A stretch of 10,544 nucleotides of DNA from an uncultured Clostridia bacterium (lineage in GTDB: Bacteria > Bacillota > Clostridia > Oscillospirales > Oscillospiraceae): the NCBI GenBank assembly GCA_946619065.1, contig CAMOLY010000028.1, positions 1-10,544 on the forward strand, given 5' to 3'. Position numbers and translations under genes: made by a program. Of this stretch, positions 6,015 through 9,209 are shown piece by piece. The notes beneath the pieces are model-generated. The model made no database searches and was not told the DNA's origin. It was given only the letters and a program-made list of their open reading frames with translations. Within the stretch, counting starts at the first letter, position 1; every line of letters starts with the position of its first letter.

Positions 6015-6383
6015 ATGGATTACAGAAATTATTACGGCAGCCAGGCTGCGCACCTTCTCGCGCGCCTGCGGCGCAGCAGAAGGCAGACGATTGCCTCCCT
6101 GCTGACCGCGCTCCTATGCGGCGGCAGCTTTCTCTACTTTCAGTTCCCGGCGCTGATCCGCGCCGCCATCGAAGGCAAGCCCGCCTTCGCCGAGCCCGCG
6201 CAGGAGGGCGGCGCCCAGGCCGCCGCCGAGGGAATCGAACACGTGGCCCTGTCCGCCTGGATTTTCGCAGGCGTGCTGGCAGTCGGCTTCGTGTTCTGCA
6301 CAGTCGTCTTCATCCTTTCCCTGCGGAAGTATCTGCTGCTGAAAAAAGCCCTCAATCCTGCCGCCCTGCGGGAGGAAGACTGA
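6015..6383 (+). CDS. Small two-helix membrane protein, operon tail
   Basis: A 122-aa protein with no family I recognise. AGGAGGT (6003-6009) lies 5 bases before the ATG. An arginine-rich N-terminus (LLARLRRSRRQ, 14-24) is followed by a hydrophobic segment at about 25-50, an Ala/Glu-rich loop (55-76), a second helix (79-103) and a short basic tail. By the positive-inside rule both ends are probably cytoplasmic with an external loop. It follows the DUF4129-type gene by 26 bases with no terminator, so it is presumably the fourth gene of the MoxR operon. Both proteins end in similar charged tails (LRRED and LREED, from near-identical codons), which may be chance. A small accessory subunit of the membrane complex is a guess from position. 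A rho-independent terminator follows only about 250 bases later, beyond a repeat zone. Confidence 0.8.
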   Translation: MDYRNYYGSQAAHLLARLRRSRRQTIASLLTALLCGGSFLYFQFPALIRAAIEGKPAFAEPAQEGGAQAAAEGIEHVALSAWIFAGVLAVGFVFCTVVFILSLRKYLLLKKALNPAALREED

Positions 6384-6392
6384 GTCCCGCCG

Positions 6393-6472
6393 GGGGACGA
6401 GGGATCAGGCAATAGGCAATAGGCAATAGGCAATAGGAGACGGGGGGACGAGTGATCAGTGATCAGGGATTA
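6393..6472 (+). repeat. Heptamer tandem-repeat tract 1
   Basis: Mostly built from 7-base words: GGGATCA (6401-6407), four exact GGCAATA units (6408-6435), a GGAGACG/GGGGGACGA interruption, two GTGATCA units (6452-6465), then GGGATTA (6466-6472). The words share a G-x-x-A-x-x-A frame, so they look like variants of one ancestral heptamer. This resembles the short tandemly repeated repetitive sequences described in cyanobacteria. The complementary words recur at 9140-9192. Confidence 0.9.
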
Positions 6473-6500
6473 GGGGCGGGGACGCCGGAATGTTTCCCTT

Positions 6501-6601
6501 CGTCGGGGCGCACACTGTGCGCCCACAGAACGGGATCGGGAACGATCAAAACCACCGGGGCTCGTCTCGCGCCGTGGGCGCATGATATGCGCCCCTACGG
6601 A
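6501..6601 (+). repeat. Paired-hairpin element, copy A
   Basis: Two hairpins lie 70 bases apart, start to start. The first (6506-6524) is GGGCGCAC, loop ACT, GTGCGCCC. The second (6576-6594) is GGGCGCAT, loop GAT, ATGCGCCC. The 51-base spacer begins ACAGAACGGGA and carries GATCAAAA and CACCGGG. The outer flanks are CGTCGG on the left and CTACGG on the right. The spacer matches that of copy C at about 42 of 51 positions by eye, in the same orientation. The loop types are exchanged relative to copies B and C. Confidence 0.92.
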
Positions 6602-6633
6602 AGCGGGCGGACCGGGACGGGTCCCCCGTCCAT

Positions 6634-6661
6634 GCCTTCCCCTCAAGGGGAAGGCTTTTTT
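6634..6661 (+). terminator. Rho-independent terminator for the MoxR operon
   Basis: GCCTTCCCCT (6634-6643) pairs perfectly with AGGGGAAGGC (6646-6655) and is followed by six T's (6656-6661). It is the first good intrinsic terminator after the stop at 6383. The heptamer tract and hairpin element A would therefore be transcribed as a 3' untranslated region of the operon. Confidence 0.88.
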
Positions 6662-6744
6662 CTGCCCGAACGTGCGCGCCATCGTAATCTCCTCCGCCGC
6701 AAAACCATCGTGCGAATCGGTTTGTATTTCATTCTCTCACCCCA

Positions 6745-6790
6745 TCAATTCTTTCATTTTTTTCATTCTTTCATTTTTTCATTTTTCTCC
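6745..6790 (+). repeat. Pyrimidine-rich T/C tract with TTTCAT repetition
   Basis: About 46 bases almost free of G, in which TTTCATT/TTTCATTTTTT recurs imperfectly. It contrasts sharply with the GC-rich surroundings. It could be a flexible or easily melted stretch upstream of the next gene, or an eroded tandem repeat. No function can be read from it. Confidence 0.5.
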
Positions 6791-6830
6791 CGCCTTCCCC
6801 GTCTCGACAGTTTCCTCTCCGCAGCCGCGC

Positions 6831-6836
6831 TATACT
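6831..6836 (+). promoter_or_regulatory. Possible -10 box for the 249-aa gene
   Basis: TATACT lies 29-34 bases before the ATG at 6865. The best -35 match, TCGACA at 6804-6809, is 21 bases away, longer than normal spacing. If real, the promoter is weak or needs an activator. Confidence 0.4.
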
Positions 6837-6864
6837 GGGGCTACCAACGGAAAGGAGACCGAAT

Positions 6865-7614
6865 ATGAGCATGGATTCGATTTGGCTGGCCGCGGTCGGG
6901 GCGGTGATCGGCGTCCTGACCCTTACGGCCACAGCCTATGCAAGCCGCAGCGGAGGCGGGCGGGCAGCCTCCGAATCGCCGCCTCAGACGGCTGCGGTCT
7001 GCGCCGCGCCAGCGGATGACACCCGTGATGACGAGGTCTGGGGCGGGCAGGCGGCGGAGGCCTTCGCCCCGGAAAAGTGGTACGCCGCCCTCCGCCTGGA
7101 CGTGGAGGCGGGCCAGCCCCTCAGCCTCTGCGAGCTGGACGGGACCGAGATCGCCCCGCTGGAGCCGGACGCGGACGGGGACGTGGCCCTGGGCCCGATT
7201 GCGCCGGGCCGGTATGCCCTCGTCTCCGGCACGGAGCGGCTGGGCAGCTTCCGCATGTATGACAACGCGGCCCTGGGAGAGGCCGCCGGCAGACTCTGGA
7301 CCGACGGAGAGGTGCTGCATCTGGCCGATTATCTGCCCGGGCAGGCGGAGGTCACGGTGACGCTCCCGGCCGCCGGCTACTACAGCTTCGCCCTGGTGGA
7401 CGACAACGGCCTGCGCCGGACCTCGGATCTCTTCATCCCCTCCGCCGCCCGCCCGGACGAGGGCCGCAGCTTCCTGCGCACGCTGGAATTCTACGGCCTG
7501 CCGGAGGGCCGCTACACCCTCGTCCACCAAAAGCTCCCGCTGCTCCAGTTCCGGGTCCTGGCGGGCGGCGTCGCCCGGGTTTCGGCGGCTGTGGCGGCAA
7601 ACACGGTGGGCTGA
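6865..7614 (+). CDS. Exported or anchored protein with repeated G-R/Y-Y-x-L-V motifs
   Basis: A 249-aa protein of no family I recognise. AAAGGAG (6851-6857) precedes the ATG by 7 bases. One hydrophobic N-terminal segment (about 6-26) ending in ATAYA could be a signal peptide or an uncleaved anchor; a Ser/Pro/Ala-rich linker follows (27-70). The rest looks all-beta. Residues 110-131 (APGRYALVSGTERLGSFRM core) and 210-231 (PEGRYTLVHQKLPLLQFRV core) align without gaps, with 8 identities in 22. A third related stretch, PAAGYYSFALV, is at 168-178. The pattern (hydrophobic, P-x-G-R-Y-x-L-V, then F-R) resembles the last strands of SpaA/Cna-B or transthyretin-like sandwich domains, but no isopeptide Lys/Asn arrangement is evident and no LPXTG sorting signal occurs. 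I infer an extracytoplasmic binding or structural protein. It lies alone between repeat zone 1 and a promoter-led gene. Confidence 0.75.
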   Translation: MSMDSIWLAAVGAVIGVLTLTATAYASRSGGGRAASESPPQTAAVCAAPADDTRDDEVWGGQAAEAFAPEKWYAALRLDVEAGQPLSLCELDGTEIAPLEPDADGDVALGPIAPGRYALVSGTERLGSFRMYDNAALGEAAGRLWTDGEVLHLADYLPGQAEVTVTLPAAGYYSFALVDDNGLRRTSDLFIPSAARPDEGRSFLRTLEFYGLPEGRYTLVHQKLPLLQFRVLAGGVARVSAAVAANTVG

Positions 7615-7651
7615 ACGTCCTGTGGAGACGGAGGCTTTCCGCCGTCAGGGC

Positions 7652-7680
7652 TTGCACAATCCCGCTCCGTGTGGTATAAT
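7652..7680 (+). promoter_or_regulatory. Sigma-A-type promoter with extended -10
   Basis: TTGCAC (7652-7657), a 17-base spacer and TATAAT (7675-7680), with TG one base before the -10 box (extended -10). It lies 27 bases before the ATG at 7707 and makes the 272-aa gene an independent unit. Confidence 0.85.
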
Positions 7681-7706
7681 CAGAAAAAAGTCACGGAGGG
7701 ATCTGT

Positions 7707-8525
7707 ATGCAGCATTCCCGCTTCTCCCGTCCGGTCCTGCTGGCCGCGGCCGTCTGGAGCGCCGCAGCCTTTGTCCTGCGCTTCTGGATTCTGAAAAACA
7801 GCCTGGACGTCAACGGCGTCCTGTTTGCCGACAGTCCGGCGCTGACCTGGACCGTCGTCTTCTCCCTGGCGGGCTTCGTCGGTCTGGCCCTGCTCTGCTT
7901 CCGGCTCAGCCGCCTGCCCGGGACCGACCGTTGTTTTCTCGGCAGCAGCATCTCCGTCCTTCCCGCCGCGCTTGCCGCGGTCTTCCTGTTTGCCGGCTGC
8001 ATCCTGCGGCTGACGGACGCGGGGGCCTCCCTGGACCGGGCCATGCGCCTGACCGAGATCGGCGGCATTGTCAGCGCCGCCGGAATGGCCGCCCTGACGT
8101 TCCTCCGGGAAAGGCTCGGAAAGCATGGGTTCTGGATCCGGCTGCTGCTGGCCCTCTACACCTGCGTGAGCCTGATCCTCCGCTTCCGCGTCTGGAGCCA
8201 CGACCCGATGATCATCGACATCGTGCCCCAGCTGCTGGCGATGATCTGCGCGATGCTGAGCTGCGTGCTGCTGACGGCCTTCCCGCTGGGCGCCGGCCAC
8301 CGCAGAAGCACGGTGCTGTTCTCCCTGATGGCCTTCCTCTTTACCGTGATGTCCCTGCCCGACTATCTGATCGCGATCAAGACGGGTCTCGCGGACCTGC
8401 TGATTTATTCCGGCCTTGCGCTCTGGTGCGCAACCCACGCCTGCCTGCTGCTGCGAAAGCAGGTTCAGGACGAGCCGGAACCGCCGGCCGAGTCCGAGGG
8501 CAGCGAGGCGGAGCCGATTTCCTGA
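7707..8525 (+). CDS. Polytopic membrane protein of unknown function
   Basis: A 272-aa protein not matched to a family I know. CGGAGGG (7694-7700) precedes the ATG by 6 bases. About eight hydrophobic segments can be drawn at 9-28, 46-66, 82-102, 116-134, 143-160, 172-191, 200-222 and 228-249, with short loops. The cytoplasmic tail (251-272) is strongly acidic (QDEPEPPAESEGSEAEPIS). There are no transporter signature motifs, ATP-binding sites or obvious catalytic pairs. Charged residues close to or within membrane segments include an Asp-Pro in VWSHDPMIIDIVPQ (162-175) and an Asp in LPDYLIAI (217-224). It has its own promoter 27 bases upstream and a hairpin-rich terminator region about 55 bases after the stop, so it appears monocistronic. 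A sensory, transport or cell-envelope role is possible but unsupported. Confidence 0.82.
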   Translation: MQHSRFSRPVLLAAAVWSAAAFVLRFWILKNSLDVNGVLFADSPALTWTVVFSLAGFVGLALLCFRLSRLPGTDRCFLGSSISVLPAALAAVFLFAGCILRLTDAGASLDRAMRLTEIGGIVSAAGMAALTFLRERLGKHGFWIRLLLALYTCVSLILRFRVWSHDPMIIDIVPQLLAMICAMLSCVLLTAFPLGAGHRRSTVLFSLMAFLFTVMSLPDYLIAIKTGLADLLIYSGLALWCATHACLLLRKQVQDEPEPPAESEGSEAEPIS

Positions 8526-8580
8526 TTTTTCCAGTGTATTGACCCGTATTTCCGCAGATACTCTCTGCAGAAAGAGAGCA

Positions 8581-8602
8581 CCCGCGCGGCGAGCCGCGCG
8601 GG
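8581..8602 (+). repeat. GC-rich perfect hairpin
   Basis: CCCGCGCGGC (8581-8590) and GCCGCGCGGG (8593-8602) pair fully around GA. No T-run follows. It lies 13 bases before the true terminator and may act with it as a double-stem transcript end. Confidence 0.8.
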
Positions 8603-8615
8603 ACGGGCCCAAGCT

Positions 8616-8647
8616 CCCGCGGCCGTTCATCCGGCCGCGGGTTTTTT
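8616..8647 (+). terminator. Rho-independent terminator of the 272-aa membrane protein gene
   Basis: CCCGCGGCCG (8616-8625), loop TTCATC, CGGCCGCGGG (8632-8641), then six T's (8642-8647). The 10-bp stem is perfect and it lies about 90 bases after the stop at 8525. Confidence 0.92.
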
Positions 8648-8671
8648 CAAACTTTTTGAAGTTTGAAAAAA
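8642..8671 (+). repeat. A/T-rich hairpin overlapping the terminator T-run
   Basis: TTTTTTCAAACTT (8642-8654) pairs perfectly with AAGTTTGAAAAAA (8659-8671) around TTTG. Its left arm starts with the T-run of the preceding terminator, so in RNA the U-run could be taken up by this second stem. Confidence 0.8.
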
Positions 8672-8776
8672 GTGATTGAACGAGAAAGACAACCCTGATG
8701 GTTTTCTTTCACACTTTCTTTCCTTCCGAATCCTTGACCGAATGGACTGCCTGACACCCTGCCGCAATCGGATTCC

Positions 8777-8793
8777 CCGGCCGCGGGTTTTTT
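8777..8793 (+). repeat. Stray copy of the terminator 3' half
   Basis: CCGGCCGCGGGTTTTTT here is identical to 8631-8647. The matching left arm of the stem is missing, so the copy should not terminate well. The two copies begin 146 bases apart. Confidence 0.75.
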
Positions 8794-8880
8794 GTCCCGC
8801 GCCAAAGCCCCCGCCCGTCGCCGGAACCTTTTCCCCCGGCCTTCGTCAGAAAAACGGCCGATTCCTGCCCCCGCTCCTTT

Positions 8881-8981
8881 CGTCCGGGCGCATATCATGC
8901 GCCCACAGAGCGGGACCAATCACGATCAAAAACACCGGGAAAGCTCTCTCGCTGTGGGCGCACACTGTGCGCCCCTACGGA
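8881..8981 (+). repeat. Paired-hairpin element, copy B
   Basis: The first hairpin (8886-8904) is GGGCGCAT, loop ATC, ATGCGCCC. The second (8956-8974) is GGGCGCAC, loop ACT, GTGCGCCC. They are separated by 51 bases that match copy C at about 44 of 51 positions by eye. The right flank is CTACGGA, as in copy A. The left flank is CGTCCG rather than CGTCGG. Confidence 0.92.
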
Positions 8982-8998
8982 GCGGGACGCTTCCCTTT

Positions 8999-9099
8999 CG
9001 TCGGGGCGCATATCATGCGCCCACAGAACGGGACCGGGAACGATCAAAAACACCGGGAAAGCTCTCTCACCGTGGGCGCACACTGTGCGCCCCGACGGA
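8999..9099 (+). repeat. Paired-hairpin element, copy C
   Basis: The first hairpin (9004-9022) has loop ATC and the second (9074-9092) has loop ACT, with a 51-base spacer. The left outer flank CGTCGGGGCGCA and the right outer flank TGCGCCCCGACG are exact inverted repeats, so this copy has perfect terminal inverted repeats. It begins 118 bases after copy B. GCGGGACGC and TTCCCTTT precede it, and related bases (GCGGGGACGC ... TTCCCTT) precede copy A, so the repeated unit extends a little to the left. Confidence 0.92.
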
Positions 9100-9139
9100 T
9101 CTTTCCGCAATCGGCGCTTCCGCCGTTTCCCCCGTCCCC

Positions 9140-9192
9140 TATTGCCTGTTGCCTATTGCCTCGCCTCCCCCCGTCCCCTAATCCCTAATCCC
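9140..9192 (-). repeat. Heptamer tandem-repeat tract 2 (inverted relative to tract 1)
   Basis: TATTGCC, TGTTGCC, TATTGCC (9140-9160) and two TAATCCC units (9179-9192). These are complements of GGCAATA, GGCAACA and GGGATTA, so this tract carries the words of tract 1 on the other strand. The interruption CCCCCCGTCCCC matches the complement of the GGGGGACGA-type interruption in tract 1. Confidence 0.88.
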
Positions 9193-9209
9193 TGCGGAAA
9201 AACCACAGA

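Follow-up and report, generated by a model that had tools for sequence, protein, structure and literature searches.

Tagged hairpin pairs of the REPIN/BIME type with two core types in both orders around one spacer in a Clostridia draft genome

Contig C28 (CAMOLY010000028.1) of an uncultured Clostridia bacterium, whose 10,544 bases are the window analyzed here, carries three short elements, A, B and C, each built of two hairpins around a spacer. As an earlier note on this DNA had remarked, the loops of one element have exchanged places, which raises the question of what these repeats are and how two types of hairpin came to stand in both orders around one spacer. The elements are almost certainly repetitive extragenic palindromes (REPs) combined as REP doublets forming hairpins (REPINs) or bacterial interspersed mosaic elements (BIMEs), with two exceptions: the tag GTAG is found in a minority of the copies, and no cognate enzyme was found in the incomplete genome (1.08 Mb in 152 contigs, estimated completeness 57%). 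Overall, we lean towards reading them as head-to-head tagged palindromes of this type, likely copied in trans by an HUH transposase of the REP-associated tyrosine transposase (RAYT) type, whereby the two core types, T and C, would have come into both orders by inversion of the spacer.

Paired hairpins, their two core types and the order of the cores

The six hairpins of the window, two in each element, are 19 nt long with an 8-bp stem and a 3-nt loop, and all are exact matches to the pattern GGGCGCA-N5-TGCGCCC. The chance expectation for such matches was 0.00 and none of 200 dinucleotide shuffles reached six, and a chance origin of the hairpins was set aside. In all three pairs the start-to-start distance is exactly 70 nt and the spacer 51 nt, confirming the geometry described in the earlier note. 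The two core types differ in the loop, which is mostly AYC in T and mostly ANT in C; the tag is the tetranucleotide at the outer foot of the stem. The features are as follows.

6501..6601, forward strand: dimer A, a heterodimer with swapped loops (left core C, right core T)
6506..6524, no strand assigned: hairpin A-left, C type, GGGCGCAC-ACT-GTGCGCCC, outer tag GTCG
6525..6575, forward strand: spacer of A, 51 nt, oriented as in B and C; 88% identity to the spacers of C47_8005 and copy C
6576..6594, no strand assigned: hairpin A-right, T type (ATC from outside inward), outer tag GTAG
8881..8981, forward strand: dimer B, a T/C heterodimer
8886..8904, no strand assigned: hairpin B-left, T type, outer tag GTCC
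8905..8955, forward strand: spacer of B, 51 nt
8956..8974, no strand assigned: hairpin B-right, C type (AGT from outside inward), outer tag GTAG
8975..9003, forward strand: B-C linker, 29 nt, making a 118-nt tandem step; an identical 48-nt hairpin-to-hairpin step is found on contigs C67 and C89
8999..9099, forward strand: dimer C, a T/C heterodimer; predicted single-stranded DNA fold is one long hairpin (z -5.5)
9004..9022, no strand assigned: hairpin C-left, T type, outer tag GTCG
9023..9073, forward strand: spacer of C, 51 nt
9074..9092, no strand assigned: hairpin C-right, C type (AGT from outside inward), outer tag GTCG

Over 106 nt, A and C are 77% and 92% identical to B, respectively, and A is 82% identical to C. 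The single orientation ascribed to spacers and outer flanks holds for the spacers and near flanks of all three. The literal loop letters had also been given correctly, but the ACT of A is not the loop written ACT in B and C: once the loops are read in the polarity of the element, from outside inward, A has the C loop ACT but B and C have AGT, while the T loop is ATC in all three. Similarly, the perfect terminal inverted repeats attributed to copy C are limited to a 12-nt outer run, the full 26-nt arms being only 85% complementary.

Although the earlier note had reckoned with the case that these are the only copies, a genome-wide search gave 53 exact hairpins against none for the reversed control pattern, a multicopy palindrome as in REPs. 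The exact copies comprise 31 of type T (GGGCGCAT-NNN-ATGCGCCC), 21 of type C (GGGCGCAC-NNN-GTGCGCCC) and one of neither type. Allowing two mismatches within the examined stretches of the genome, in which all 53 exact copies lie, extended the set to 67 hairpins, oriented by their outer tag and inner flank and hence independently of the loop. From outside to inside, every one of the 40 T cores in this set was TAYCA or TATTA, the reverse never occurring, which disposes of the other case that had been considered, a random loop identity; the first loop base was A in 64 of 67 hairpins. The outer tags were GTAG (17), GTCG (21), GTCC (26) and others (3), so that the GTAG expected at the 5' foot of a REP (GTAG/GTGG) is present in a minority (17/67). 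The second published super-family is defined by a CGTC tag together with A/T pairs at the first stem positions (PMC3733652). CGTC does occur here as a tag, yet the stems start with GGG.

Among 25 neighboring hairpin pairs 60–95 nt apart, six that are not tail-out were removed (four head-to-tail on contig C106, one on C74 and one on C78). The remaining 19 are inverted, tail-out (head-to-head) dimers, 15 of them with a step of 70 nt, one with 68 nt and three with 90–91 nt and a longer spacer; 17 have a GT tag at both ends, the typical REPIN/BIME geometry, and two (C45_5038 and C3_12396) lack it at one end. BIME-like tandem arrays are also present: B and C follow each other at a step of 118 nt, and between neighboring exact hairpins steps of 48 nt occur three times and steps of 50 nt twice. 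A different arrangement of the same hairpin was seen on contig C106 (L046:2640-2965), where five T hairpins with a single type of inner flank stand head-to-tail at 73-74-nt steps. On the same contig (L046:1390-1740, 3100-3240), hairpins of a second family, GTAG-TGGCC...GGCCA, are scattered among these elements, and a similar tagged hairpin adjoins a RAYT-type gene of another genome (G018, L182). Contig C110 (L035:1490-1616) holds a near copy of the left flank and element of A that ends inside the loop of the right hairpin and continues with other sequence; the break may be a junction within the loop or an assembly end.

In the orientation of the spacer, the 19 dimers were T/C in 12 cases, C/T in four (copy A included), T/T in three and C/C in none, so the loop swap is real and recurrent. 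Heterodimers thus made up 16 of 19 (p 0.009 in a permutation keeping the left and right frequencies), an excess beyond chance that we regard as suggestive, not firm. For the three T/T dimers, the longest uninterrupted in-register complementarity between the arms was 13, 21 and 24 nt; in the 16 heterodimers it ranged from 6 to 13 nt.

The outer flanks, which are of two kinds (X = TCGTC, Y = CCGT), bear on how the order changed. Written as flank/core/core/flank in spacer orientation, the 19 dimers include five XTCY, three YTCX, two XCTY and one YCTX, and inverting the spacer alone converts YTCX to XCTY and XTCY to YCTX. Each of the three swapped dimers (of four) with two different outer flanks therefore has the layout of another class found in this genome, its spacer turned round, and for this reason the hairpins may not have moved. 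Copy A (XCTY) is the neighbor of C47_8005 (YTCX) in the spacer tree (support 0.93, spacer identity 88%) and, point differences aside, has the arrangement of C47_8005 with the spacer inverted. Between the two causes proposed in the earlier note, inversion and gene conversion, these comparisons make a flip of the spacer between its inverted hairpin arms the likely simplest single step for the change of order, with gene conversion of the cores kept as a rival; the claim that the spacer had not moved is correspondingly less supported.

As for the surroundings of the window copies, A is located between open reading frames (ORFs) 6015-6383 and 6865-7614, and B and C between ORFs 7707-8525 and 9312-end, so the three window elements, in two intergenic gaps, are extragenic. 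The genes of the window are ordinary: the 3' part of an RNase J-like gene, a phosphate acetyltransferase, a MoxR-type ATPase, a DUF58 protein, a weak DUF4129 match below the cut-off and a YfhO membrane protein truncated at the window end, while three window ORFs had no Pfam match. Both sites have short tandem repeats nearby, with AGGCAAT and GGGATTA/CCCTAAT-like units (6414-6446 and 9129-9161; 6443-6474 and 9168-9193). Those of one site are inverted relative to those of the other and 94% complementary over 33 nt, and similar stretches occur on contigs C67, C106, C110, C89 and C47.

RAYT-type genes of relatives and arrays in other strains

The hairpin was found in 16 of 59 genomes searched, the genome under study (G000) included here and in the following genome counts. 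The C hairpin was present in 14 of 120 family genomes, with at least 18 copies in each of G000, G032, G131 and G155, and the T hairpin in 19 of 400 family genomes, with 31 copies each in G000 and G350 and 13 in G271. In relatives the tag is more uniform than here: of the 29 distinct hairpins at the 21 loci examined, 24 carried GTAG, all 24 with A first in the loop. In two T-rich relative genomes it was carried by 19 of 19 hairpins in 14 loci (of 16 in this second set), again always with A first, although overlapping loci may count twice here. Overlapping or off-pattern loci were omitted from both tallies.

A RAYT profile, built from an alignment of 11 RAYT-like congener proteins with an invariant MPNHxH motif, had matches with an E value of at most 0.001 in 44 of the 120 family genomes; those Y1_Tnp matches in congeners that looked like plain IS200 elements or longer forms other than RAYTs were set aside. 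In genomes other than this one, hairpins of both core types are found at RAYT-type genes. G032 and G132 each have a RAYT-type ORF with two inverted GTAG-GGGCGCACAGTGTGCGCCC (C) hairpins inside the reading frame, and in G271 a RAYT-type ORF adjoins two GTAG-tagged T hairpins. In the two former genomes (L220:1495-2007 and L206:1468-1980), one in-frame hairpin precedes and one follows the HUH motif. Across 30 RAYT-type loci (L200-L229), a GTAG-tagged hairpin lies inside the match in 20 and an inverted pair in 15. A loose peptide pattern detected no RAYT protein with T-type peptides among 120 listed of 527. In one further locus (L171, G019:C61), a RAYT-like domain ends a long open frame whose start resembles a sugar-kinase-type protein and which contains many VGAVIGRPPQ repeats, perhaps the read-through of another hairpin array. 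In-frame hairpins in such genes are not new: tnpAREP subclass 2.4 has been described with REPs in frame within the transposase gene, as a rule between HUH and Y (PMC6006769); the two-site inverted in-frame pair may deserve a look.

With the read-through ORF across B and C as a query, seven environmental proteins (P0001-P0007) were obtained. Two of them share both flanks of the window locus at 8.7–9.2 kb: P0001 has two dimers plus additional sequence, and in P0002 three dimers and a further T hairpin can be read, so the dimer array at this locus differs among strains. All 14 complete dimers read from the hairpin-coded peptides of the seven proteins consist of one T and one C, a set that is biased because the query itself held T/C dimers and that was therefore kept out of the statistics; one dimer of P0005 reads as loop-swapped, its inner flanks having been back-translated by eye, which is not unique. 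These predicted database proteins are a read-through of repeats (AHIMRP, GRTLCAP and similar), as are the window ORFs 8676-9188 and 8792-9181; they are likely annotation artefacts, yet useful records of the arrays of other strains. The paired-hairpin pattern was found in none of the stretches of the species genomes searched, a set outside which this genome or very near ones may lie. Among the 80 relatives of the MoxR protein that were retained, the top one, from Cuneatibacter caecimuris, has 65% identity. The DUF4129-like protein reaches a maximum of 36% identity in those congeners that have it and is too divergent for empty sites to be obtained by synteny.

Weighing the inversion reading against its rivals

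In the scheme that we lean towards, a RAYT-type HUH transposase would copy the dimers in trans, this genome having, or having had, a cognate RAYT that may recognize both tag and loop. The 51-nt spacer would invert by recombination between the inverted hairpin arms, producing T and C in both orders, so that C/T dimers would have arisen by inversion and not by gene conversion. Perfectly matched pairs would be lost because they form long uninterrupted hairpins. Dimers would stay stable after inversion since it retains one T and one C, unlike conversion, which would give unstable T/T or C/C pairs. By analogy with the enzyme of Stenotrophomonas maltophilia, for which reversal of the loop destroys binding and the first loop base is crucial (PMC8266576), the loop "code" of the earlier note is plausible as a feature for enzyme recognition and in no other sense. 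The likeness to REPs and BIMEs drawn there was right as far as tested, given the multicopy tagged hairpins, the inverted tail-out pairs and the RAYT-type genes of relatives that carry the same hairpins.

Several observations weigh against this scheme. No RAYT was detected in this genome with Pfam Y1_Tnp or the 11-sequence RAYT profile, 43% of the genome being missing. At tag positions 3 and 4, the changes that were tested stop cleavage by the S. maltophilia enzyme (PMC8266576), and because 47 of the 67 tags read GTCG or GTCC, a large number of copies may have lost their mobility. A search for joined element flanks over the examined stretches returned self matches, tandem neighbors and other repeats, with no clean empty site among the matches listed, which also leaves the alternative reading of the elements as miniature inverted-repeat transposable elements without support. 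No mobility event was seen, the evidence from other strains consisting of read-through ORFs. Eight of the 19 dimers have outer flanks that are alike or unclear, or are T/T, so the flanks are noisy. Copy A and C47_8005 differ in the C core (CACTG versus CACCG) and in both tags, and the spacer of A is equally close (88%) to that of the standard copy C. The excess of heterodimers becomes marginal (11 of 14, p 0.055) once near-identical spacers are collapsed, and a Fisher test on the 24 defined pairs of the raw table, non-dimers included, gave p 0.14 (12 T/C, seven T/T, four C/T, one C/C and one undefined among 25 pairs).

A doubtful yet tenable alternative keeps the same REPIN/BIME family and the spacer fixed; here it is the cores that would have been swapped, the identical 7-nt stems serving as sites of template switching or short gene conversion. 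Since the stem GGGCGCA/TGCGCCC is common to both types, a 5-nt conversion tract bounded by this identity would be enough. Moreover, the spacer of A is as near to that of copy C as to that of C47_8005, so conversion has to be reckoned with, and it accounts for the three T/T dimers of 19, which inversion alone cannot produce. Among the 67 hairpins, 11 T cores stand on the inner flank usual for C and eight C cores on that usual for T. However, independent events should also yield C/C dimers, of which there are none among 19, and turning T/C into C/T takes two conversions, whereas classes one inversion apart are already present in the genome.

The T/C rule may also be a matter of descent only, a few founder dimers having been amplified and the four C/T dimers stemming from separate founders, with no rule against homodimers. 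This we consider unlikely, though not strongly so. The spacers do form near-identical groups (those of C90 and C89_1786 are 94% identical), and the loss of significance on collapsing the 19 dimers to 14 speaks for descent; yet the C/T dimers span three spacer groups, and copy A falls among T/C spacers.

It is very unlikely that the elements are immobile and act at the RNA level, as terminators or stabilizers of mRNA ends spread by duplication, and do not serve as a transposase substrate. Each window copy is downstream of a gene and has ORFs of the same direction on both sides, and the predicted folding energies of the window dimers are below those of all shuffles (z -4.6 to -5.5), both of which would suit such a function. 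On the other hand, a scan of the window gave no Rfam family above threshold, no T-run follows the hairpins by eye, the same hairpins are found in or beside RAYT-type genes of relatives, and a fixed loop polarity relative to the tag would be unnecessary for an RNA stem. An artefact of the fragmented draft, to which the 152 contigs, the copies at contig ends (e.g., C74, C84 and C37) and the broken copy on C110 might point, is hardly credible, since all three window copies are internal to a single contig, flanked by genes, and this locus is also encoded, with similar dimers, by separate environmental contigs.

Known REP systems and the meaning of the two orders

The inverted REP doublets of the Pseudomonas fluorescens SBW25 REPINs likewise form hairpins and are extragenic, and they are linked to RAYTs, the GI doublets having a step of 71 bp against 70 here (PMC3116915). 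Those doublets are symmetrical, with one invariant 16-mer at both ends, in contrast to the two core types in either order found here, and our tags, unlike those of SBW25, are mostly GTCG/GTCC. The BIMEs of Escherichia coli with their Y and Z REPs are similar in that different REP types are paired in inversion, often in tandem, as in the 118-nt steps described above; they differ in having longer bulged stems instead of perfect 8-bp stems with 3-nt loops, and both orders of two types around one spacer distinguish the present family (PMC6006769, PMC8266576). The hairpin itself equals in geometry REP-Sm, the substrate of TnpA-Sm in S. maltophilia, which also has a perfect 8-bp stem and a 3-nt loop behind a tetranucleotide, 23 nt in total. 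However, the crucial first loop base is G there and A in most hairpins here, and our tag has drifted in a genome with no identified enzyme (PMC8266576). Head-to-head dimers with conserved spacers are further shared with the GTAG and CGTC REP super-families, from which the present case departs in that one hairpin family has GTAG, GTCG and GTCC (hence CGTC) tags (PMC3733652).

The kind of element is thus known. The literature searched yielded no description of dimers that combine two types in either order around a single spacer, with all four flank/core combinations, and none of spacer inversion or core exchange in REP dimers; this survey included PMC3733652, PMC6006769, PMC3116915, PMC8266576 and PMC12306157, most subscription papers being outside it. 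A word search of PMC3733652 found neither "inversion" nor "exchange".

Most REP families preferentially form heterodimers, a preference for which PMC3733652 sees "no obvious explanation" and on which this family bears. Elsewhere, descent and selection are hard to separate because one left/right pair has simply been copied; in this family the order has been rearranged, with most dimers still keeping one of each type, and this helps to separate the two. A bolder and rather improbable generalization would be that REPIN dimers are invertible micro-segments, in which the spacer flips to and fro between unlike hairpins, possibly through cleavage and joining of single-stranded DNA by the RAYT, and that a pair would persist only as long as its hairpins are different, selection keeping their unlikeness, not their order. 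REPIN/BIME-like dimers are, moreover, shown here in a genome that has Clostridia as its closest named relatives at the protein level, and the passage from GTAG to CGTC-like tags within one hairpin family bears on the relation of the two published super-families (PMC3733652). If the order does change by flips of the spacer, this family would allow testing why such repeats avoid identical pairs.

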